Source: Chryseobacterium paludis (GTDB lineage: Bacteria; Bacteroidota; Bacteroidia; Flavobacteriales; Weeksellaceae). From it: a DNA stretch of 64,000 bases. Positions 3,943-59,458 of this stretch are shown here, piece after piece (position 1 is the first letter of the stretch; the number at the start of each line of letters is the position of its first letter). The DNA is taken from assembly GCF_025403485.1 (NCBI RefSeq), contig NZ_CP099966.1, forward strand, positions 806,001 to 870,000. The letters are read 5' to 3'. A program made the translations under genes and the position numbers. The notes beneath the pieces are model-generated. The model made no database searches, was not told the origin of the DNA, and saw nothing but the letters and a program-made list of their open reading frames with translations.

Positions 3943-4926
3943 ATGAATTTAAACACCAATTCTCAAATAAAAAATAATCACAATAAGACCGAAAACTTTT
4001 TCCTCGATGTAAAAAAAGGACTGGAAAGTGATCCTAAGAGATTATCTTCAAAGTACTTTTATGATGAAATTGGGGATCATCTTTTCCAGAAAATAATGGC
4101 AATGCCGGAATATTATCTTACCCAATGTGAACTGGATATATTTCAAAATAAAACATCGGATATTGCTGATCTTATTGCCTTTGATGATCAACCATTCGAT
4201 CTTATTGAACTTGGTGCCGGTGATGCCATGAAATCAACGCACCTCTTGAAATACATGGTAAAAAAAGGCTTGGATTTTACCTATATGCCTATTGATATTT
4301 CAGGTAATATCCTTTCAATTCTGGATCAGAAATTAAATGAAAGTCTACCGGAATTAAAAGTAGTCTGCTTAGAAGGTGAGTATTTCGAAATGTTAAATAA
4401 AGCAGCTTCACTTTCCTCAAGAAGGAAGGTGATATTGTTTTTAGGTGGTAATATCGGAAATATGGAACTTGATGAGGCCCATTCATTTTGTTCAGGTCTA
4501 AAACAACATCTTGCATCAGGAGATCGGGTATTGGTAGGTTTTGATCTAAAGAAAAATCCACATACTATTTTAAATGCCTATAATGATAAGACTGGTATAA
4601 CAGCGTCATTTAATCTTAATCTTCTTACCCGCATTAATCGTGAACTTGATGCCGATTTTGACCTTAAGCAATTTCAGCATTATCAGACATATGACCCTGT
4701 TAGTGGGGCATGCCGAAGTTATCTTGTAAGTCTTATCGATCAGGTTGTAACCATTGATCATGCAGTAATATCGTTTAAAGAAAATGAGCTGATTGATATG
4801 GAAGTTTCACAAAAGTTTTCAGAAACAGATATCAAAGAATTAGCAGAAAAAGCGGGTTTTGAGATCAAGGGAGAAATAAGAGACTCAAAAAAATGGTTTA
4901 TAGATTCCGTTTGGAAAGTGAAATAA
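3943..4926 (+). CDS. egtD: L-histidine N-alpha-methyltransferase EgtD
   Basis: A 327-residue SAM-dependent methyltransferase, the usual length for EgtD, which trimethylates the alpha-amino group of histidine to give hercynine, the first step of ergothioneine synthesis. The SAM motif is IELGAGDAMKS (about 88-98), followed by the acidic strand PIDIS (116-120). The EgtD-typical sequences DLKKNPHTILNAYND and FNLNLLTRINRELDADFD are well preserved. The family motif normally written as PGSTIGN reads FLGGNIGNM here, a modest deviation. It is the first gene of a five-gene plus-strand run, 18 bases before egtB. The ATG at 3943 matches the family N-terminus. Confidence 0.93.
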   Translation: MNLNTNSQIKNNHNKTENFFLDVKKGLESDPKRLSSKYFYDEIGDHLFQKIMAMPEYYLTQCELDIFQNKTSDIADLIAFDDQPFDLIELGAGDAMKSTHLLKYMVKKGLDFTYMPIDISGNILSILDQKLNESLPELKVVCLEGEYFEMLNKAASLSSRRKVILFLGGNIGNMELDEAHSFCSGLKQHLASGDRVLVGFDLKKNPHTILNAYNDKTGITASFNLNLLTRINRELDADFDLKQFQHYQTYDPVSGACRSYLVSLIDQVVTIDHAVISFKENELIDMEVSQKFSETDIKELAEKAGFEIKGEIRDSKKWFIDSVWKVK

Positions 4927-4944
4927 TAATTAAAATCTAAAAAG

Positions 4945-6117
4945 ATGATAGCAAATCCTAAGATTATTGATGTAGTAAAGAAATATACGGATGTTCGAAA
5001 CCATTCCGTAGCAATTTGTGCCCCATTGGAAATTGAAGACTTTGTGGTGCAGCCTATTGTAGATGTTAGCCCGCCAAAATGGCATTTAGGACATACCACC
5101 TGGTTTTTTGAAACTTTTATATTGTCACCCAATTTTCCAGGTTATGAGGTTTTTGATCCCCAATATAATTTTGTTTTCAACAGTTATTATGAAACCATCG
5201 GAGCACGTGTTATCAGGACCGATCGAGGTAATCTTAGCCGTCCCTCAGTTGCTGATGTTTACCAATACAGAGAATATGTTGATCAGCAAATGAAAGCTTT
5301 CCTTCAAAGTGAATCAATGAGTAAATCTATTGAGTCCCTTTTAGAACTTGGATTAAATCATGAACAGCAACATCAGGAACTTTTGCTTACCGATATCAAA
5401 TATATTCTTGGACATAATCCTTTATTTCCTGCTTATAGAAAAGATTCAGGTGTAAAACAGGAAAACCTACGTATAGGGAAAATGATCCATTTTAATGAAG
5501 GGATCTATGAAATTGGTTTTAATGGTAATGGTTTTTGTTTCGATAATGAGTTAGGGAGACATAAAGTTTATCTTCAGGATTTTGAAATAAGTGATCGGGC
5601 AGTTACCAATGGTGAATACTTGGAATTTATAAATGATAGCGGGTATACTGATTTCAGGCATTGGCATGCTGAAGGTTGGGACTGGGTAAAACAAAATAAT
5701 ATAAAATCTCCTTTGTATTGGCATTTTATTGAAGGCCAATGGATGTATTATACTTTAGATGGTTTACAGGAATTAGATCACGGAGAAGCGGTCTGTCACA
5801 TTAATTTCTACGAAGCCGCAGCTTATGCTGCCTGGAAAGGAATGCGTTTACCTACCGAAGCCGAGTGGGAAGTCGCTTCTGAAGAATTTCCGTGGGGAAA
5901 CCGTTGGGAATGGACTGGAAGTGCCTATTTACCTTACCCGGGATTTAAAAAAGAAGCTGGTGCAGTAGGGGAATACAATGGAAAATTTATGGTAAACCAA
6001 ATGGTCTTACGAGGTGGCTCAGAAGCAACACCAAAGGGGCACAGTAGAAATACATATCGTAATTTCTTTCATGCGAATCTACGCTGGCAGTTCACAGGAA
6101 TCAGATTGGCGAAATAA
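4945..6117 (+). CDS. egtB: Hercynine oxygenase / sulfoxide synthase EgtB
   Basis: A 390-residue protein with the two-domain EgtB layout: an N-terminal DinB-like helical bundle and a C-terminal FGE-sulfatase (formylglycine-enzyme type) fold. The probable iron ligands are His50 in LGHTTWFFE and His139/His143 in NHEQQHQE. The C-terminal domain shows AVTNGEYLEFI, AWKGMRLPTEAEWE and LRGGSEATPKGHSRNTYRNF. EgtB joins hercynine to a thiol with oxygen. No glutamate-cysteine ligase (EgtA) or amidohydrolase (EgtC) gene is nearby, which suggests direct use of cysteine as in type-II enzymes; this is inference. It lies 18 bases after egtD and 10 bases before the ATPase gene. Confidence 0.92.
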   Translation: MIANPKIIDVVKKYTDVRNHSVAICAPLEIEDFVVQPIVDVSPPKWHLGHTTWFFETFILSPNFPGYEVFDPQYNFVFNSYYETIGARVIRTDRGNLSRPSVADVYQYREYVDQQMKAFLQSESMSKSIESLLELGLNHEQQHQELLLTDIKYILGHNPLFPAYRKDSGVKQENLRIGKMIHFNEGIYEIGFNGNGFCFDNELGRHKVYLQDFEISDRAVTNGEYLEFINDSGYTDFRHWHAEGWDWVKQNNIKSPLYWHFIEGQWMYYTLDGLQELDHGEAVCHINFYEAAAYAAWKGMRLPTEAEWEVASEEFPWGNRWEWTGSAYLPYPGFKKEAGAVGEYNGKFMVNQMVLRGGSEATPKGHSRNTYRNFFHANLRWQFTGIRLAK

Positions 6118-6127
6118 GTCTTAAACT

Positions 6128-7045
6128 ATGATTAAAGTAGAATCAGTAACTAAAAATTTTGACGAACGAACTGCTGTCGACCGCATTTCTTTTCAAGCGA
6201 ATGACAAGGAAATATTAGTACTTCTGGGAACCAGTGGTTGCGGAAAAACAACGACTCTAAAAATGATCAATCGTCTGATAGAAGCTGATTCTGGTAATAT
6301 ATTTATTAACGGAGAAAATATTCGCGATAAGAAGGTTGAAGAACTCCGGATGCATATAGGTTTCGTTATGCAGCATTCAGGGTTGTTTCCCCATTATACG
6401 ATTCGACAGAATATAGCTGTAGTTCCGGAGTTGCTGAAATGGGAGAAAAAAAAGATCCAGAGCAGAACCGGGGAGTTAATACATAAGCTTCATTTACCCG
6501 AAGATCTTTTAACTCGTTTTCCTCAGGAATTAAGTGGGGGACAGCAACAGCGTGTTGGCATTGCCAGAGCTTTAATTGCAGATACTCCCATACTATTAAT
6601 GGATGAGCCTTTTGGTGCATTGGATAATATAACAAAAGCAGACATTCATTCTGAATTTAAATCACTTGAAGAGCTTAAAAATAAAACCATCATTCTTGTT
6701 ACTCACGACGTGCAGGAAGCGTTTGAACTGGGGCATAGGATTTGTTTGATGGATAAAGGGCAAATTATTCAAATAGGAACTCCGATGGAAATGCTTTATC
6801 GCCCTGAGAACGATTTTGTAAAAGATTTTTTTGCAGAAAACAGGCTTTTACTGGAGTATAAAGTAGCCAGCTTAGAGAATGTCCGACCCTTTCTTGCCGA
6901 TTCTCAAATACTAAATGGAAGGTTTAATAAAACTGAAAACGTATGGAATATTTTACAAAAGCTAAGTGCTGATAAAAGCTATACAGAACAGTATGAAAAA
7001 TTAACAGAAGCATTCAATATTTATAGAAAAGTGCAGACCGAATGA
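6128..7045 (+). CDS. egtV: ABC transporter ATPase, OpuCA/ProV type, probably EgtV
   Basis: A 305-residue ABC ATPase of the quaternary-amine (glycine betaine/choline) family. Walker A is GTSGCGKTT (34-42), the Q-loop region MQHSGLFPHY (81-90), the signature LSGGQQQR (135-142), Walker B ILLMDEPFGALD (155-166), and the switch histidine THD (192-194). The C-terminus is short and lacks the tandem CBS osmosensing domains of OpuA-type ATPases. Its stop overlaps the start of the permease gene by 4 bases (ATGA). Position directly behind egtD-egtB and the fused partner match the ergothioneine importer EgtUV described in Helicobacter pylori and Streptococcus pneumoniae. Substrate is inferred from context and could instead be a betaine. 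Confidence 0.82.
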   Translation: MIKVESVTKNFDERTAVDRISFQANDKEILVLLGTSGCGKTTTLKMINRLIEADSGNIFINGENIRDKKVEELRMHIGFVMQHSGLFPHYTIRQNIAVVPELLKWEKKKIQSRTGELIHKLHLPEDLLTRFPQELSGGQQQRVGIARALIADTPILLMDEPFGALDNITKADIHSEFKSLEELKNKTIILVTHDVQEAFELGHRICLMDKGQIIQIGTPMEMLYRPENDFVKDFFAENRLLLEYKVASLENVRPFLADSQILNGRFNKTENVWNILQKLSADKSYTEQYEKLTEAFNIYRKVQTE

Positions 7046-8607
7046 CGCAACAAAGTCTATGGCAATTTATTGTCGAACAACAAGATAAACTCCTGATTCA
7101 AATTGTACAACATCTTGGATTGACTTTTGTGTCATTACTATTGGCGATCGTAGTTGGAGTTCCCCTGGGAATATTGATAGCAAGGAAGAGATTATTTGCC
7201 AATCCTGTTCTTGGAACTGCAGGTATCTTACAAACTGTTCCCAGTATTGCTTTGCTTGGATTTATGATTCCTGCTTTTGGGATAGGAGCAACCCCGGCAA
7301 TTGTAGCTTTACTGATCTATGCGCTTTTACCAATTATCAGAAATACTTACACAGGAATTACGGGAGTTGACCCTGCAGTTATTGAAGCGGCGAAAGCAAT
7401 GGGAATGAATAGGAAACAGCTTCTTTTCAAAGTTGAACTTCCTTTAGCAATGCCCGTTATCATTGCAGGAATACGGACCGCTGCTGTTATCAATGTTGGA
7501 GTGGCTACATTAGCTTCATTTGTTGCGGCAGGAGGATTAGGTGAATTTATATTCGGTGGTATTTCACTGAATAATACCAATATGATCCTTGCAGGTGCCA
7601 TTCCAGCGGCTTTACTTGCTATTATATTAGATCAGCTGATTGCTGTTTTACAAAAGACAGGTTACCGAAGACTTCGTAAGATCTTATTTATCATTCCCTT
7701 AATACTGATTGTCGTTGTTGGATTCTATGTACTAACTTCAAATTCCGGGAACAAACTTAAAGCAGGTTTTACGCCGGAGTTTATGGGACGACAGGATGGA
7801 GATATCGGTTTGAGATCAGTGTATGGACTGAATGCGAAGCCTACCATTGTAAGCGATGCTATTATGTACAAAGCTGCTTATGATAAAGAACTGGATGTTA
7901 TCAGTGGTTATTCTACAGATGGCAGAATTAAGGCTTTTGATCTCTATGTTTTAAATGATGATAAAAAAATATTTCCACCTTATTTTGCAGCACCAATCAT
8001 CAAAACAAAAACATTACAAAAATTTCCCCAATTGAAAGAAGTTTTAAATTTGTTGGCTGGAAAATTTAATGATTCCGTTATGACGGATCTTAATTACAGA
8101 TCGGACTATTTACACCAGACGCCGGAAAAAATTGCTAAAGATTTTCTAAGAAAAAATAGATTATTAAAGACCCCAAGAAAAGGTAGCGGCGGAACCATAA
8201 GGATCGGATCAAAAATTTTTGGCGAGCAGTATATTCTTACAGAAATGTATAAAATGCTTATTGAAGGCTATACCGATTATAAGGTTGAAACGAAGACCGG
8301 ATTGGGAGGAACTAAAATATGTTTCGATGCTCTGACGAATGATGCGATCGATTTTTATCCTGAATATACAGGCACCGGACTTTTAGTGCTTCTAAAGCCA
8401 ACGGAATCAACCATTAAAAATGTAAGTCAGAGTGCGGAAAAAACCTATGATTATGTCAATTCAGAATTTAAAAAACAATATGGAATTGAATGGCTGAAAC
8501 CTTTGGGTTTTAATAATTCTTATGCTTTAATGATGCGAAGAGAACAGTCTCAGAAATTAAAAATAAAAACTATTTCAGATCTTAAAAACTATTTAGACAC
8601 TCCTTAA
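7042..8607 (+). CDS. egtU: Permease fused to substrate-binding domain, probably EgtU, binding domain permuted
   Basis: A 521-residue fusion. Residues about 20-205 are an ABC permease with the EAA loop AAKAMGMNRKQLLFKVELP (116-134). A further TM helix at 213-232 leads outside the membrane to an OpuAC-type binding domain. The halves of that domain are in reversed order. The part normally second (LKAGFTPEFMGRQDG, ISGYSTDGRIKAFDL, FPPYFAAP; 239-375) comes first. After a short linker (TPRKGSGGT) comes the part normally first (IRIGSKIFGEQYIL, TGLGGTKICFDAL, DFYPEYTGTG, LKPLGFNNSYAL; 386-520), ending at ISDLKNYLDTP. This is a circular permutation. Fusion and neighbours suggest ergothioneine uptake. 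It overlaps egtV by 4 bases. Confidence 0.82.
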   Translation: MTQQSLWQFIVEQQDKLLIQIVQHLGLTFVSLLLAIVVGVPLGILIARKRLFANPVLGTAGILQTVPSIALLGFMIPAFGIGATPAIVALLIYALLPIIRNTYTGITGVDPAVIEAAKAMGMNRKQLLFKVELPLAMPVIIAGIRTAAVINVGVATLASFVAAGGLGEFIFGGISLNNTNMILAGAIPAALLAIILDQLIAVLQKTGYRRLRKILFIIPLILIVVVGFYVLTSNSGNKLKAGFTPEFMGRQDGDIGLRSVYGLNAKPTIVSDAIMYKAAYDKELDVISGYSTDGRIKAFDLYVLNDDKKIFPPYFAAPIIKTKTLQKFPQLKEVLNLLAGKFNDSVMTDLNYRSDYLHQTPEKIAKDFLRKNRLLKTPRKGSGGTIRIGSKIFGEQYILTEMYKMLIEGYTDYKVETKTGLGGTKICFDALTNDAIDFYPEYTGTGLLVLLKPTESTIKNVSQSAEKTYDYVNSEFKKQYGIEWLKPLGFNNSYALMMRREQSQKLKIKTISDLKNYLDTP

Positions 8608-8611
8608 TTAC

Positions 8612-9775
8612 ATGAACTATAATTTTGACGAAATAATACCAAGACGAGGAACGAACTCTATAAAATGGGATAAGGTTGCGGATGAAAATGTATTGCCAAT
8701 GTGGGTAGCTGATATGGATTTTAAAACGCCTCCTGAAGTTATAAAAGCTCTTTCAAGGAAGGTTGAACAAGGAATATTTGGTTACAGTATTATTCCTTCA
8801 GCATTTTATGATTCTATTATCAATTGGTGGGAAATAAGCCATCAGCTGATCTTGAAAAAAGAGTGGCTGTTACCAGTTCCCGGAATGATCCCCGCACTTT
8901 CAGCTATTATCAGAGCCCATCTTCAACCGGGGGATAATATTATTGTTCAATCACCTGTCTACAATCATTTCTTTACGCTTATAGAAAACTGTGAATGCAA
9001 TACGGTTGAGAACCATTTGATCTATGAAAATGGAAATTATCAAATAGATTTTGTTGATTTGGAATTGAAAGCTTCAGATCCACAAACTAAAATGCTGTTA
9101 ATCTGCAGTCCTCATAACCCTGTGGGTAGAGTTTGGGTACGTGAAGAACTGGAGAAAATAGCTTCCATATGCACAAAACATCAAGTAATGGTAGTTTCAG
9201 ATGAAATCCATGCTGATCTGGTTTATAAAAATCATCGGCATATTCCGTTTGTTTCTGTTGCAGGAAATTATGATCTGGTTTCTGTTACCTGTGGTTCGCC
9301 CTGTAAGACATTTAATCTATCCAGCCTGCCTGTATCTTATGTTATCTCCAAAGATCAGGAGATCTTAAAACGGATTGAGAAAATACTTACAATACAGGAA
9401 ACAACTACCATTAATCCATTCGCCGTTGAAGCTTTAATAGCAGCTTATAATCAGGGTAGAAATTGGATGGAAGAACTAAAAGAATATGTATATGCCAACT
9501 ATTTATATCTAAAATATTTTTGCAAGGAATATCTGCCAAATGTATTGGTTAGTGACTTACAGGCGACTTATCTTGTATGGCTGGATTGTCATACTTTAGG
9601 TAAAGGATCAGATGAACTTTCCAAGTTTTTATTTAAAGAAGAAAAGCTTTGGTTAAATTCAGGCACCATGTACGGAAGCTCTGGAGAAGGTTTTTTACGC
9701 ATAAATATCGCCTGTCCAAGACAAGTTTTGGAGGAAGGTTTACAACGATTGGAAAAATATGTACATAAAAAATAA
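8612..9775 (+). CDS. MalY/PatB-type PLP-dependent C-S lyase, candidate EgtE-like enzyme
   Basis: A 387-residue fold-type I PLP enzyme of the MalY/PatB cystathionine beta-lyase group. Features are the N-terminal MWVADMDFKTPPEV typical of this group, CSPHNPVGRVW (165-175), the cofactor aspartate in VVSDEIHADLVY (194-205), and the Schiff-base lysine Lys232 in GSPCKTFNLSSL. It starts 4 bases after the transporter stop, so it is clearly in the same operon. The last step of ergothioneine synthesis is PLP-dependent cleavage of hercynylcysteine sulfoxide by EgtE, and the operon otherwise lacks this step. The proposal that this enzyme performs it is inference. Ordinary cystathionine lyase or aminotransferase activity is the alternative. 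Confidence 0.82.
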   Translation: MNYNFDEIIPRRGTNSIKWDKVADENVLPMWVADMDFKTPPEVIKALSRKVEQGIFGYSIIPSAFYDSIINWWEISHQLILKKEWLLPVPGMIPALSAIIRAHLQPGDNIIVQSPVYNHFFTLIENCECNTVENHLIYENGNYQIDFVDLELKASDPQTKMLLICSPHNPVGRVWVREELEKIASICTKHQVMVVSDEIHADLVYKNHRHIPFVSVAGNYDLVSVTCGSPCKTFNLSSLPVSYVISKDQEILKRIEKILTIQETTTINPFAVEALIAAYNQGRNWMEELKEYVYANYLYLKYFCKEYLPNVLVSDLQATYLVWLDCHTLGKGSDELSKFLFKEEKLWLNSGTMYGSSGEGFLRINIACPRQVLEEGLQRLEKYVHKK

Positions 9776-9830
9776 TATTGATCCGGTATTTCTTTAATAC
9801 CTCTTATAATTCTGGACGGCTTTTTATCTT

Positions 9831-10076
9831 TTATAAATTTCTATTCGCCTTTTCTTTTTTTAATTGATTCCACTTGTTAATATTTAGGATTAAAATAGGA
9901 AGCAGGGCGATAGGAATTACAGTGAGAGCAGTAAATCCATTTTTGAATATTAAAAACATATTACTTAAGAATAATATCGGGATTGAAACCATCAGCAAGG
10001 TGGTTACTGCTTTACTTTTCTTTTCATTGTTGATGAGTTCCTCGTTTGTGTATTCGGTTATAGGTTTATTTTTCAT
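9831..10076 (-). CDS. Small two-helix membrane protein
   Basis: An 81-residue protein starting MKNKPITEYTNEELINNEKK, with two hydrophobic helices (AVTTLLMVSIPILFLSNMFL and ALTVIPIALLPILIL) and a basic tail. A longer start eight codons upstream would overlap the end of the preceding gene. The ATG at 10074-10076 instead begins one base after the upstream stop, so it is preferred. Similar short flavobacterial proteins carry the label redox-active disulfide protein 2, but no cysteine pair is visible here, so that name would mislead. Function unknown. Confidence 0.6.
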   Translation of the reverse strand: MKNKPITEYTNEELINNEKKSKAVTTLLMVSIPILFLSNMFLIFKNGFTALTVIPIALLPILILNINKWNQLKKEKANRNL

Positions 10077-53524: not shown

Positions 53525-55366
53525 TTACAGGTTACTTTCGATAGCACCTACTTTTTCCCTGTATAACTCAATAGGTTTATCAAGTAATACGGCAATAATA
53601 GTCATATTCCTATCCAATCTTTCTTTTGGAGCATCAATATAAATAATTCCCGGTCTGTCACTCCAATATAATTTATTAAAAATATGATGGCTGATCATAG
53701 AACCTTCACCAACAATTCTTATTCTTGAGATCCCATTTTTAATTCCCTTCAGGGCAATAGGTCCGCTGGGAATTCCTTCTACAAAAAGATAAAGGGTTTG
53801 TTTATCCTTCGAAAGGGTGCTCATTCCTGAATAGTGGCCACCTGGTAATCCTTTGCCGGTATCGAAAAGAGCTTCAGCATGTTTACTGATCCATGATAAA
53901 ACTTCAGGGTTTGTATTTGGAGTTTTTGGAATGGTCATATCCATACCATCATTAGTAAGTCCAGAATGATCTAATACATTGTTTCCATCATTTATTTGGT
54001 TGGCAATGTTATAAATTGTCTCTTTTGTATTTTTATTGTTTATTACATCTGAGAGTGATTTTTTTTCTAGTGGGAAATCTTTTAATATTTTAAGTGGATC
54101 ATTAAATGTTAATTGAACTACTGTTACATCCTCATCAAATTGCGTATTTGAAAGATTAAGGGTTAAAGTATTGTTTTTACTAAGATCAAAGTTTATTTTT
54201 GCTTTATTATCTCCGATGATTTTTGCAGAAATAGGTTTAGTTTTTATACCATAGATTTTCATGAGATCTTTGGCTTCCTCCAGATACAAAAAGAGGGATT
54301 TTCCATCAGCAGAAAGTGCTGATTTTCCTTTATAATTTTCAAAAGGTAATCCGCGTCGGGTAGCATAAATGGCTTCAGGGTATTTTGAAATCCATCGTCC
54401 CATATTCTTTAGAATTTTAACCTGTTCTTCAGAAACACTTCCATCAGCTTTCGGACCTATATCAAGTAGAAGGTTTCCACCCATACTTATTACATCTGCC
54501 AAAGTTCTTATCAGCATATTCGGGGTTTTATAATGAGTATCAAAAGGCTGATATCCCCATGAATCATTCATAGTATAACATAATTCCCAATATTTATTTT
54601 GTGGAGCAATTACGGGAATACCCTGTTCAGGAGTTTCATAATCTCCATGATTGTTTAATCTTGAATTAATGATAATATTCGGATTGAACTTTCTTAGATT
54701 TTCCAGCGTCTGTGAAGCTTGCCATTCTTCCGAAGTATGTTCCCAATCCCCATCAAACCATAATAAATCCGGCTTATACTGATTTGAAAGTTCATCTAAT
54801 TGACTTTGGTAATACTGAATAAAACTTTGCCAGCGTTTAGGATCATTTTTAATTTCATACCTTTTTTTAATTCTTGTATTGATATCATAATAGGGATGAC
54901 TCCAATCCGGAAGAGAATAGTAGAGTCCCGTTTTTATTCCTGATTTTTTAAGTTCAGTGACAAAAGGTGTTAAGACATCCTTTTTTGCTAAAGAATTTTC
55001 AGGAATGGTAATGGATTTTTCAGCTTTAGAATCCCAGAGTGAAACGCCATCATGATGTTTTGTAGTTATCACAGAATATTTAGCTCCGGATTCCTTAATT
55101 AGCTTTGCCCAATATTCAGGATCAAATTTCGATGCAGAAAACCCATTAAGCTGCTTCATGTAGTTTTCATGGTTAATATAATTATTAAAAAAGGACCATG
55201 ATTCCGAAATTCCATCTACAGAATAAATTCCCCAATGGATAAAAATTCCAAGTTTAGCATCCTGAAACCATTCCATTTTCTTATTTTCAGTTGATAGGGA
55301 TTGGGCATTCATATGGGCAGCTAATGACAATCCTAACAGGAACAATCCGGTAAATCTGCATTTCAT
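53525..55366 (-). CDS. Secreted GH29 alpha-L-fucosidase
   Basis: A 613-residue enzyme: signal peptide (LFLLGLSLAAHMNAQ), then a GH29 barrel (MEWFQDAKLGIFIHWGIYSV, YSVITTKHHDGVSLWDS, TGLYYSLPDWSHPYY) with the nucleophile Asp in LLWFDGDWEH, and C-terminal beta domains. Residues SEEQVKILKNMGRWISKYPE begin the region following the barrel. GH29 enzymes release alpha-linked fucose. No other fucose genes are adjacent. Confidence 0.92.
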   Translation of the reverse strand: MKCRFTGLFLLGLSLAAHMNAQSLSTENKKMEWFQDAKLGIFIHWGIYSVDGISESWSFFNNYINHENYMKQLNGFSASKFDPEYWAKLIKESGAKYSVITTKHHDGVSLWDSKAEKSITIPENSLAKKDVLTPFVTELKKSGIKTGLYYSLPDWSHPYYDINTRIKKRYEIKNDPKRWQSFIQYYQSQLDELSNQYKPDLLWFDGDWEHTSEEWQASQTLENLRKFNPNIIINSRLNNHGDYETPEQGIPVIAPQNKYWELCYTMNDSWGYQPFDTHYKTPNMLIRTLADVISMGGNLLLDIGPKADGSVSEEQVKILKNMGRWISKYPEAIYATRRGLPFENYKGKSALSADGKSLFLYLEEAKDLMKIYGIKTKPISAKIIGDNKAKINFDLSKNNTLTLNLSNTQFDEDVTVVQLTFNDPLKILKDFPLEKKSLSDVINNKNTKETIYNIANQINDGNNVLDHSGLTNDGMDMTIPKTPNTNPEVLSWISKHAEALFDTGKGLPGGHYSGMSTLSKDKQTLYLFVEGIPSGPIALKGIKNGISRIRIVGEGSMISHHIFNKLYWSDRPGIIYIDAPKERLDRNMTIIAVLLDKPIELYREKVGAIESNL

Positions 55367-55565: not shown

Positions 55566-55772
55566 ATGAAAATACCAGCATTATTGATGGCAGGTTTAGT
55601 AACGGTAAGTTTATCTGCACAGACTACTACACCTACTGTAAAGAAAACTAAAAAGCCAATAAAGAAAGTAAGAAAAGCAGAGGTTCCTAAAAGTAATACA
55701 AGACCTATTGCTAAAAAAGATACTATTTTAAGAGGAAAGAACTATCCTTGCGTAGCATGTGGTATGGGTTAA
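55566..55772 (+). CDS. Secreted RiPP precursor with C-terminal CxxC core, chryseobasin-like
   Basis: A 68-residue peptide. It has a Sec signal (MKIPALLMAGLVTVSLSA, predicted cut before Gln19), a Lys/Arg-rich middle (VKKTKKPIKKVRKAE), and a core ending GKNYPCVACGMG with Cys62 and Cys65. Its stop is 3 bases before the start of an MNIO (DUF692) enzyme gene. MNIO enzymes are known to modify Cys in such precursors; ChrH of Chryseobacterium acts on the ChrA precursor. A TATTTTTG box at 55509-55516 suggests an own promoter. The modification on this peptide is not predictable. Confidence 0.82.
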   Translation: MKIPALLMAGLVTVSLSAQTTTPTVKKTKKPIKKVRKAEVPKSNTRPIAKKDTILRGKNYPCVACGMG

Positions 55773-55775
55773 CTT

Positions 55776-56873
55776 ATGAAAAAACCGCTATTAGGATTAT
55801 CAATGATGGCTGAGGCAGATTTTGTTTCAGCTATTTTGCCTTTATTTGAAAACAACCAAATAGAAATTTTAGAATGGTCTTTTGATACTTTTTATGATGT
55901 AGAAGAACCTGAATGGCTAAAAGGTTTACTGGATTTTTATTCTCAAAATAACCGTTTGATCGGTCATGGTGTCTATTATTCCCTTTTTGATGCGAAATGG
56001 ACAGAAAGACAGGAAGAGTGGCTTAATAATCTAAAAACTGAAACTGAAAAGCGCCATTATAATCATATAACTGAGCATTTTGGTTTTATGAATACAGAAA
56101 ACTTTCATCAAGGTATTCCTTTGCCGGTTTCCTTGAACTCCAAAACACTACAAATAGGAAAGGACAGACTTTTAAGGCTGCAAGATGTTGTAAATGTTCC
56201 AATAGGAATTGAAAACTTAGCTTTCTCTTTTTCTATAGAAGATGTAAAACAACAAGGACAGTTTCTTGATCAGCTGATTACGGATATTGATGGTTTTTTA
56301 ATTCTGGATCTTCATAATATCTATTGCCAGGCCTATAATTTTGACGTTCAGCTCGAGGAAATTATTAGTGCTTATCCTTTAGAAAAAGTTAAGGAAATAC
56401 ATCTCTCCGGAGGAAGCTGGAATCAAAGTATTTACACTAAAAATAAACTAATTCGCAGAGATACCCATGATGATGCTATTCCTGAAGAAATATTAAATAT
56501 TCTTCCTTTTGTACTTCCAAAGTGTGAAAACCTGCAATATATTATTATTGAAAGACTGGGGTGTACCATAAAAACAAAAGATGAAAAAGAAGCATTTTTT
56601 GATGATTTTAGAAGAGTCAGAGAGATTATCGATAGCATTGAATATCATGAAAATAATTATCCGGCGATCTGGGAGAAAAAAAATGTTAATTTAGTTTCAC
56701 CGCTCGAGGATCTACAATTATATGAAGATCAGACACGCTTAACACAGTTGCTGTTTGATGATAAACCGGAATTGATTAAAAGTCAAACATTTCACTATTT
56801 TAAAACAGATGATTGGGATATAGAGATGATTAATACTGCTAAGAGTATTATAAAAAAATGGAATCCTTATTAA
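55776..56873 (+). CDS. MNIO (DUF692) multinuclear iron oxidase
   Basis: A 365-residue TIM-barrel MNIO enzyme. Predicted iron ligands are His64 (LIGHGVYY), His101 (ITEHFGF), Glu146 and Asn147 (PIGIENLAF), Asp178 and His180 (LILDLHNIY), His209 (KEIHLSGGSW), Asp229 and His231 (RRDTHDDAI) and Glu259 (IIIERLG). Residues about 300-365 (VSPLEDLQLYEDQTRLTQLL; DIEMINTAKSIIKKWNPY) extend beyond the core fold. They may replace the separate partner protein found in other MNIO systems. It follows the precursor after 3 bases and is followed by a DUF1772 gene after 44 bases. Confidence 0.88.
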   Translation: MKKPLLGLSMMAEADFVSAILPLFENNQIEILEWSFDTFYDVEEPEWLKGLLDFYSQNNRLIGHGVYYSLFDAKWTERQEEWLNNLKTETEKRHYNHITEHFGFMNTENFHQGIPLPVSLNSKTLQIGKDRLLRLQDVVNVPIGIENLAFSFSIEDVKQQGQFLDQLITDIDGFLILDLHNIYCQAYNFDVQLEEIISAYPLEKVKEIHLSGGSWNQSIYTKNKLIRRDTHDDAIPEEILNILPFVLPKCENLQYIIIERLGCTIKTKDEKEAFFDDFRRVREIIDSIEYHENNYPAIWEKKNVNLVSPLEDLQLYEDQTRLTQLLFDDKPELIKSQTFHYFKTDDWDIEMINTAKSIIKKWNPY

Positions 56874-56917
56874 AGGCGTTACTCATATATCGACATTAGA
56901 ACCATAAAATAAAAACT

Positions 56918-57412
56918 ATGAAAATGACAACAATTCTATTAATTTTAACTGCTGTATTAACGGCTCTTATAGGTGGCCTTTTTTATGCATATTCCTGCTC
57001 GGTGGTATTAGGCCTGGGGAAATTATCAGATGCAGAATATCTGAAAGCAATGCAGTCTATTAACAGGGAAATTCTAAATCCTGTATTCTTCCTGAGTTTT
57101 ATGGGGACAGCAGCGATGCTTCCCATTTCTACTTTTTTATATAGGGCACAAAACCCTGTATTCATGTTATTGTTATTGGCAACAATAATCTATCTCATTG
57201 GGGTTTTTGGAGTTACGATAGTGGGAAATGTTCCTCTAAATGATCAGTTGGATCAGTTTAATATAGTAGATTCTACAGCAGAAGGATTAAAGAAGATGCG
57301 TGACGTTTTTGAAAACAGATGGAATTTTCTAAATACCATACGTGCTATATGCTCAACCTTGAGTATACTCTTGGTTATATGTGCCTGTGTCTGGACTAAA
57401 GCAGAATCATAG
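56918..57412 (+). CDS. DUF1772 (anthrone-oxygenase-like) membrane protein
   Basis: A 164-residue protein with four hydrophobic helices and DUF1772 features: an opening GGLFYAYSCSVVLGLGKLSD, then AMQSINREILNPVFFLSFMG, and VTIVGNVPLNDQLDQF with a later RWNFLNTIR. Some family members are called anthrone oxygenases. It lies 44 bases after the MNIO gene in the same direction, so it may be part of the RiPP operon, perhaps in redox chemistry or membrane handling; this is inference. Confidence 0.75.
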   Translation: MKMTTILLILTAVLTALIGGLFYAYSCSVVLGLGKLSDAEYLKAMQSINREILNPVFFLSFMGTAAMLPISTFLYRAQNPVFMLLLLATIIYLIGVFGVTIVGNVPLNDQLDQFNIVDSTAEGLKKMRDVFENRWNFLNTIRAICSTLSILLVICACVWTKAES

Positions 57413-57619: not shown

Positions 57620-58270
57620 TTAAATTTTTAAAAGCTCTATTGTTCTTTCAGGACTTTCAGATGAGAAAACAGCGTTTCCGGCTACTAAAACATCAGCTCC
57701 GGCTTCAAATAATTTCGACGCATTATCCAAGTTAACACCTCCATCCACTTCAATTAACGCAGTAGAGTTGTTGCTTAAAATTAAATCTTTAGTTTCAGCA
57801 ATCTTCTTATAGGTATTTTCAATAAATTTTTGTCCTCCAAATCCTGGATTTACACTCATTAATAACACCAAATCAACATCCGCAATAATATCTTCCAGCA
57901 TTAAAACCGGAGTAGAAGGATTAAGCACAACTCCTGCTTTAGCTCCTCTGCTTTGAATAAGGTGGATCGTTCGGTGTAAATGCGTACAAGCCTCATAGTG
58001 GATAGAAATTAAATCAGCTCCGTGATCAATAAATTCTTCAACATACTTTTCAGGTTCAACGATCATCAAATGAACATCAACAAATTTTTTAGCATGTTGC
58101 TGAACAGTCTTCATCACAGGAAAACCAAATGAAATGTTTGGAACAAATCTCCCATCCATGACATCGATATGGAACCAGTCGGCCTGAGAATTGTTCAACA
58201 TTTCAATGTCTCTTTGCAGATTCCCAAAGTCTGCGGATAATAGGGAAGGAGCAATTAGCTTAGTTTTCAT
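57620..58270 (-). CDS. rpe: Ribulose-phosphate 3-epimerase
   Basis: A 216-residue TIM-barrel Rpe of normal length. LIAPSLLSADFGNLQRDIEM, WFHIDVMDGRFVPNISFG, VDVHLMIVEPEKYV, LLMSVNPGFGGQKFIE and IEVDGGVNLDNA carry the active-site Asp, His and metal ligands. It interconverts ribulose- and xylulose-5-phosphate in the pentose phosphate pathway. Confidence 0.95.
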   Translation of the reverse strand: MKTKLIAPSLLSADFGNLQRDIEMLNNSQADWFHIDVMDGRFVPNISFGFPVMKTVQQHAKKFVDVHLMIVEPEKYVEEFIDHGADLISIHYEACTHLHRTIHLIQSRGAKAGVVLNPSTPVLMLEDIIADVDLVLLMSVNPGFGGQKFIENTYKKIAETKDLILSNNSTALIEVDGGVNLDNASKLFEAGADVLVAGNAVFSSESPERTIELLKI

Positions 58271-58381: not shown

Positions 58382-59458
58382 TTAATGATATTTCAGTTTC
58401 ATTTCCGGTTTTATCTTCAAAATCGTTTCGTAGATTAATGAGATAACGTTTCCGACATCTTCTTTTGAAACCATTTCTACCGTTGTATGCATGTAGCGCA
58501 AAGGTAGAGAAATCAAAGCGCTTGGAACACCGCCATTAGAATGTGCGAAAGCATCTGTATCCGTTCCTGTTGCTCTGCTGGCAGCCGCTCTTTGATAAGG
58601 GATCTTTTTAGTTTTTGCCGTATCAATGATTAATTCTCTGATCGTGTGATGAACACTAGGGGCAAAGAAAATTACAGGCCCGTCACCACATTTTTGGTCA
58701 CCTTCTTTTTTCTTCTCGATCATAGGTGTTGTAGTGTCATGGGTAACATCAGTTACAATAGCGATATTTGGTTTTATCGTATCAGCAATCATGTCTGCTC
58801 CATATAAACCTACTTCTTCCTGAACGGAGTTTGTAATGTATAGACCAAAAGGAATCGTTTTTTTATTTTCCTTTAAAAGTCTTGCTACCTCTGCGATCAT
58901 AAATCCACCAATCCTGTTGTCTAAAGCTCTGCAGACAAAATAACGGTTATTCATTTCAAAGAATTCGTCTGGATAAGTGATCATACAACCTACGTAAATA
59001 CCCATTTCTTCAACTTCTTTTTTGGTAGTGGCTCCGCAGTCGATGAAGATATTTTCGATTTTTGGTGTTGGTTCGTTTTGATTAGCGCTTCGGGTGTGAA
59101 TGGCTGGCCATCCGAAAACTCCTTTTACGATGCCATTTTCTCCATGAATGTGAACAACCTTTGATGGAGCGATCGTTTGATCTGAACCTCCATTTCGGAT
59201 CACATAAATTAATCCGTCATCCGTAATATAATTAACGTACCAGGAGATTTCATCCGCATGTGCTTCGATAACCACTTTGAACTCTGCTTCAGGATTAATA
59301 ATTCCATAGCAGGTTCCATAATGATCGACTTCAATTTTGTCTACATATGGCCGAATATAATCCATCCAGATTTCTTGTCCTTTATGCTCGTAACCGGTCG
59401 GTGAGGATGTATTTAAGTATTTTTCTAAAAATTTTAAAGATTTCTTTTCAAATTTCAT
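58382..59458 (-). CDS. M42-family metallopeptidase
   Basis: A 358-residue aminopeptidase of the M42 (glutamyl/cellulase-associated) family. Metal ligands and active site are in VIEAHADEISWYV, VCRALDNRIGGFM, SVQEEVGLYGADMI, IVTDVTHDTTTP and the late His in LRYMHTTVEMVS. These dizinc enzymes form large tetrahedral aminopeptidases. It is monocistronic; its start faces the DUF4294 gene. Confidence 0.92.
   Translation of the reverse strand: MKFEKKSLKFLEKYLNTSSPTGYEHKGQEIWMDYIRPYVDKIEVDHYGTCYGIINPEAEFKVVIEAHADEISWYVNYITDDGLIYVIRNGGSDQTIAPSKVVHIHGENGIVKGVFGWPAIHTRSANQNEPTPKIENIFIDCGATTKKEVEEMGIYVGCMITYPDEFFEMNNRYFVCRALDNRIGGFMIAEVARLLKENKKTIPFGLYITNSVQEEVGLYGADMIADTIKPNIAIVTDVTHDTTTPMIEKKKEGDQKCGDGPVIFFAPSVHHTIRELIIDTAKTKKIPYQRAAASRATGTDTDAFAHSNGGVPSALISLPLRYMHTTVEMVSKEDVGNVISLIYETILKIKPEMKLKYH

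Follow-up and report, generated by a model that had tools for sequence, protein, structure and literature searches.

Organization of the locus

The window, which is the whole stretch of 64,000 nucleotides that was analysed, contains three open genes on the plus strand, chrA, chrH and chrI, flanked by an alpha-L-fucosidase-like gene on the left and by rpe and an M42 peptidase gene on the right (Table 1). All five published chr genes are present in the published order, and rpe and M42 are on the minus strand. Gene order and strands are the same as in Chryseobacterium sp. JM1 (loci L073 and L184, with the order taken from L184). The stop codon of chrA is followed by 3 bases and then by the ATG of chrH. 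The initial annotation had described a 68-residue precursor ending YPCVACGMG, an MNIO gene 3 bases downstream and then a DUF1772 gene, and each of these was found where it had been placed.

Table 1. Genes at the chryseobasin locus of the window and the matches on which their assignment rests
Gene	Position	Strand	Product	Match
fucosidase gene	53525..55366	-	alpha-L-fucosidase-like; left neighbour and synteny marker, outside the module	PF01120
chrA	55566..55772	+	precursor with signal-like N-terminus, core CVACGMG	NF050124; identities to ChrA
chrH	55776..56873	+	MNIO (DUF692) enzyme, 365 aa, full length	NF050165
chrI	56918..57412	+	DUF1772 / PF08592 membrane protein, 164 aa	NF050162
rpe	57620..58270	-	ChrE in the literature; probably housekeeping ribulose-phosphate 3-epimerase	PF00834
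M42 peptidase gene	58382..59458	-	ChrP in the literature; probably housekeeping neighbour	PF05343, 253 bits (cut-off 23.2)

The three proteins passed the NCBIfam equivalog cut-offs of the chryseobasin system: ChrA scored 92.3 bits with NF050124 (chryseobasin_RiPP, cut-off 50), ChrH 653.9 bits with NF050165 (cut-off 600, match covering 1-363 of 363) and ChrI 303.4 bits with NF050162 (cut-off 275). The fact that all three passed and that their order recurs in relatives indicates that the identification is more than chance. The first description was right in calling the locus a RiPP operon, akin to chryseobasin, that pairs an MNIO enzyme with a precursor of secreted type. The adjoining DUF1772 protein, whose Pfam match is Anthrone_oxy (PF08592), is ChrI because it passes the ChrI cut-off; the claim that no ChrI-type partner lies beside the enzyme was therefore rejected. 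The named relatives of the window genome are Chryseobacterium. The locus is very probably the known chryseobasin cluster of a Chryseobacterium strain, with a minor variant of the core.

The ChrA precursor

ChrA starts with ATG, is 68 aa long and ends with NYPCVACGMG. Cys62 and Cys65 are its only cysteines, and core position 2 is Val63. It is 54% identical to ChrA of JM1. Judged by eye, the N-terminus is a predicted signal peptide, MKIPALLMAGLVTVSLSA, with Q as the first residue after the cut. When the 296 genomes drawn from the family were searched with the ChrA model, 77 were over the cut-off, all of them in the genus of the window.

Compared with CPACGMG and the motif CPxCGxG, the window core agrees at 6 of 7 positions and has Val in place of Pro at position 2. 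CVACGMG instead of CPACGMG is the sole unusual feature of the window locus. The closest other ChrA among the matches listed, P0002, is 80% identical to window ChrA and ends with CPACGMG, which suggests that Val is the derived state in the window lineage; this search was word-based and gave the best 4 of 5 candidates, not a census. The CVACGMG core was also found at locus L194, beside a ChrH above cut-off.

The two core cysteines had at first been taken as a difference from chryseobasin, but published ChrA is also modified at the two cysteines of CPACGMG (PMC10214503). The one point in favour of a new MNIO system of different chemistry, perhaps metal-binding and lacking a ChrI-type partner, is that the core departs from the characterised sequence. 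Such a system is very improbable here: it is already refuted on the partner gene by the presence of ChrI, two cysteines are standard, and all three genes score above the chryseobasin cut-offs. With ChrI present and two cysteines normal, the Pro-to-Val change is all that supports the expectation of a different product and chemistry. Binding of copper or another metal had been put forward by analogy; the product of ChrH described in PMC10214503 is a macrocycle with an imidazolidinedione. The initial annotation was to be given up if the core matched that of a characterised peptide, and the match is close without being literal (CVACGMG against CPACGMG).

The ChrH enzyme

ChrH aligned end to end with ChrH of JM1 at 67% identity. 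Ten residues (H64, H101, E146, D178, H180, N181, H209, D229, H231 and E259), which we take to be candidate metal ligands, were identical in 84/84 distinct ChrH rows, including both lineages with Val at core position 2. The full set of iron ligands first ascribed to the enzyme is consistent with this invariance. In HMMER alignments, E146, D178, H180, N181, H209, D229, H231 and E259 matched identical letters in 8hci, and H64 and H101 aligned with His in 3bww. 8hci is a DUF692 protein; PMC12141560 gives the name TglHI for 8HI8, which belongs to the same row.

The one-contig genome of the window (5,050,391 bases) has a single PF05114 match. The window MNIO scored below the cut-offs of the BufB (85.7 bits, cut-off 310), HvfB (71 bits, cut-off 360) and MbnB (21.2 bits, cut-off 325) models, which rules out membership of the bufferin, HvfB and methanobactin groups. 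The kinship first drawn to MbnB and TglH thus holds for the common family PF05114 and fails at the level of the MbnB model. Among the seven proteins scanned with Pfam, there was no DUF2063 and no MbnC-type match.

Core variants across the genus

We compared 148 genomes of the genus. chrH was present in 77 of them, 75 above cut-off and two in pieces (G120 and G063); weak chrH matches in G003, G009 and G109 were other MNIOs. The 77 cores were CPACGMG in 70 (a sum that includes ten cores displayed shifted beyond the stop codon), CVACGMG in 3, CPACGLG in 2, and CPACGKG and CPAYGMG in one each. CVACGMG is carried by the window, by strain ISL-6 of the same species (G120) and by Leaf394 (G116).

In the ChrH tree of 84 rows, the two Val rows did not group, and the starred branches force two changes; the tree was made by a quick method without bootstrap, its deep forks are weakly supported, and ChrH of ISL-6 (L034, L201) and of G063 (L202, L087) was left out by a 90% single-hit filter. 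On this tree, Val at core position 2 appears to have two origins, one in the species of the window and one in Leaf394. Of the ChrH columns in which the other 82 rows are conserved to at least 97%, just one departs in both Val lineages (Val31 to Ile). This change is uninformative, and a search of these columns for compensating changes shared by the two lineages gave no other. Window ChrH itself departs at 2 of them (Val31 and Glu159), against a leave-one-out median of 1.

Loss of Pro from the C-x-x-C turn could conceivably halt ChrH at an intermediate or a side product (such as a -36 Da or an unmethylated -4 Da species), giving a distinct congener. Pro is at position 2 in 74/77 cores, and it may matter because it is part of CPxCGxG, the subfamily motif according to the preprint PMC12636315; in PMC10214503, ChrA in the absence of SAM and, in part, ChrA-C63S are reported to give -36 Da products. 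We consider a different product unlikely, however, since Val seems to have arisen twice beside ChrH enzymes that retain the conserved positions, with Val31 to Ile as the only shared departure, and since DybH tolerates other ring changes, accepting CPPCGMG and CPAACGMG, the latter a one-residue ring expansion (PMC12636315). According to the same preprint, the seven-residue motif is sufficient for DybH, and in a model the side chains of the ring face away from the active site. Val at position 2 is not among the DybH and ChrH substitutions in the available text of PMC12636315 and PMC10214503. By analogy with the characterised enzymes, the same ChrH reaction is to be expected, with good probability, on the Val core. 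The window and Leaf394 together form a natural, twice-evolved test of whether the ring Pro is needed for this unusual enzyme reaction.

Several variant loci were observed in the sample. In ISL-6 (L034 / L201), chrH has a one-base frameshift in a run of T, from decay or assembly error, and chrA and chrI are open. The natural ChrA core CPAYGMG of G077 (L185) has Tyr for the second core Cys, with an open chrH alongside. In G068 (L173), an in-frame TAG lies within chrA, and chrH and chrI are open. ChrA of G063 is frameshifted.

The frameshifted chrH of ISL-6 raises the possibility that this species is losing the locus, in which case CVACGMG would reflect drift under relaxed constraint and no product would be made. 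The retention of chrI without a chrH match in the nearest species (G139 and G112), as well as the damage in G077 and G068, would agree with decay. We regard it as improbable all the same. In the window chrA, chrH and chrI are all open, ChrH departs at only 2 of the conserved columns, against the leave-one-out median of 1, and the single-base frameshift of ISL-6, located in a homopolymer of a draft assembly, could be a sequencing error.

ChrI with and without chrH

ChrI was above cut-off in 81/148 genomes of the genus and in 68/77 of those bearing chrH (the match in G070 spans one stop codon). chrI of G063 was in pieces, and eight chrH-bearing genomes (G035, G075, G090, G091, G104, G106, G107 and G116) had no ChrI above cut-off, G106 having one weak match distant from the locus. 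Two named loci outside the 148-genome set, L058 and L085, likewise had chrH without chrI nearby.

chrH was absent from 71 genomes, and the rpe region was fetched for 69 of them, leaving out G021 (no rpe match) and G124 (rpe split). A chrI match lay between the fucosidase gene and rpe in 15 of the 69 regions; 13 of these orphans were above cut-off without stops and 2 were broken (G130 and G135). Intact ChrI without chrH was thus found in 13/71 chrH-less genomes. When the fucosidase-chrI spacers of the 15 genomes were compared with the window spacers for an insertion or deletion scar, no score exceeded the best of 100 shuffles.

The median dN/dS was 0.091 for orphan chrI (12 sequences, 47 pairs) and 0.075 for chrI with chrH (36 sequences, 435 pairs), values that are rough because dS was near saturation. 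The filter 0.1 < dS < 2.5 passed 47/66 and 435/630 pairs, respectively; G040 was excluded from the orphans by the 90% filter, and the 36 sequences came out of the 46 fetched regions that bear chrH and not out of the full set of 77 genomes. Given these values, orphan chrI looks constrained, slightly less than chrI accompanied by chrH.

On a tree of rpe and M42 with 143 rows, 65 rows had both genes, 9 chrH only, 15 chrI only (two broken copies included) and 54 neither, so that chrI accompanied chrH in 65/74 rows and occurred in 15/69 rows without it. This association makes some functional tie between chrI and chrH likely. Although strong in raw counts, the association is concentrated in parts of the tree, and a test on independent pairs had little power: pairs differing in chrH mostly showed no difference in chrI (5.6 of 6 on average, six pairs being too few for significance). 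Window ChrI grouped with the orphan ChrI of the nearest species (SH-aLRT 93), where G139 and G112 keep chrI and have no chrH match. This grouping fits vertical descent of chrI in the window lineage.

The intact orphan copies suggest that ChrI has some separate, unexplored role of its own, apart from chrH. In PMC10214503 (2023), ChrI, the DUF1772 membrane protein, was reported as required; the preprint PMC12636315 reversed this, with ChrH yielding the +10 Da product without ChrI and ChrI being dispensable in E. coli. The gene-content pattern agrees with the report of dispensability.

rpe, M42 and the boundary of the cluster

rpe was found in 147/148 genomes of the genus, as a single full-length match in 145 (88-100% identity); G021 had none, G090 a weak match and G124 a gene split over contigs. 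M42 was found in 146/148, full length in 145 (91-100% identity), with none in G021 and G090 and a gene in pieces in G063. The two genes were adjacent, with a gap of at most 348 bp, in 68/69 fetched chrH-less loci. Both were present in 43/46 fetched chrH-bearing regions with gaps of at most 343 bp; in the window and 30 other chrH-bearing genomes the gaps were about 343 bp or less, as read off match positions. In relatives, the fucosidase gene flanks either chrAHI or an orphan chrI. In G116 and G075, rpe and M42 have remained together while chrAH is located in another part of the genome (L194, L195, L203 and L204); G090 was outside this comparison.

At L194 of Leaf394, chrA and chrH occupy 4498-5813 at a different chromosomal location, and the 7 kb fetched there contain none of chrI, rpe and M42. 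In the exceptional chrH-less locus, that of G009 (L091), rpe and M42 are 3,277 bp apart and another MNIO cassette lies between them (6785-9836). It encodes a sigma-factor-like protein, a precursor that carries EGKCG repeats and scores above cut-off with the KCGExKCG domain but below it with the HvfA equivalog, an HvfB-family MNIO (383.5 bits, cut-off 360), a DUF2063 protein and a DoxX protein.

Because rpe and M42 stay adjacent with or without chrH, ChrE and ChrP look like housekeeping neighbours. The 2023 proposal that they are dedicated pathway enzymes, in which ChrP and ChrE were named as enzymes still to be reconstituted (PMC10214503), is not borne out by gene content, which argues that both are probably housekeeping and is compatible with a peptidase acting on the peptide. 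We somewhat favour the view that only the chrA-chrH pair is dedicated to the pathway and that the published chryseobasin cluster was drawn too wide. On balance, ChrE would then be the ribulose-phosphate epimerase of the cell, ChrP its housekeeping neighbour and ChrI a membrane protein that serves independently of the pair. A module of chrA and chrH only agrees with the report that ChrI is dispensable. It would include no dedicated protease, and the exported peptide with its modified tail, cut by signal peptidase, would be the product itself. Counting against so narrow a boundary, PMC12636315 continues to present the clusters of Chryseobacterium as operons in which the genes are highly conserved. 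No doubts about ChrE and ChrP as pathway enzymes were met in the available text of the chryseobasin and MNIO literature surveyed, which lies mostly outside subscription journals. The comparison of 148 genomes suggests that the search for the final structure of chryseobasin need not wait for ChrP and ChrE. This gene-content result is the part of modest interest; the locus itself is one more chryseobasin locus.

Proposed working of the system

In the JM1 system, ChrH carries out a four-electron oxidation and a methylation that link the two cysteines in a macrocycle and form an imidazolidinedione, and both the +10 Da product and its structure were reported (PMC10214503). We carry this chemistry over to window ChrA. 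ChrH, with iron, O2 and S-adenosylmethionine, would act in the cytoplasm, recognising the last seven residues of ChrA and carrying out on this CVACGMG segment the four-electron rearrangement known for the enzyme. Cys62 would be joined to the beta carbon of the former Cys65 in a thioether macrocycle, and Cys65, Gly66 and Met67 would form the imidazolidinedione; the product would contain an S-methylated thioaminal, for a net +10 Da. The modified peptide would then be exported by Sec and cut after about Ala18, export being judged by eye from the precursor. The membrane protein ChrI would be an accessory, not an essential substrate-binding partner, and the rpe and M42 neighbours would not be dedicated to the pathway. 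Since the precursors shown share a hydrophobic N-terminus (that of G063 being frameshifted), the role of the peptide is most likely periplasmic or extracellular.

Comparison with known systems

The window locus has the same genes, order and strands as chrAHI(EP) of JM1 (PMC10214503), the same two core cysteines and the same C-terminal ACGMG. It differs in having Val, not Pro, at core position 2 and Pro before the first Cys (YPCVAC), and in JM1 chrI and rpe lie about 1.5 kb apart. ChrE and ChrP are treated as pathway enzymes in PMC10214503, whereas the present comparison argues for housekeeping functions. The dyb, chs and hym clusters of other Bacteroidota (PMC12636315) share with the window an enzyme of the ChrH subfamily, which acts on CPxCGxG. 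Those clusters differ in that, according to the preprint, their precursors are of the lipoprotein type and have a third Cys (as shown for DybA), the product is not methylated and no partner gene is obvious. HvfABC and bufferin-type cassettes also pair an MNIO with a secreted, Cys-containing precursor, but their enzymes belong to another MNIO subfamily, as indicated by the BufB and HvfB scores. Methanobactin MbnB and TglH share the MNIO family with window ChrH, while the precursor family and the DUF1772 neighbour set the window locus apart from them.
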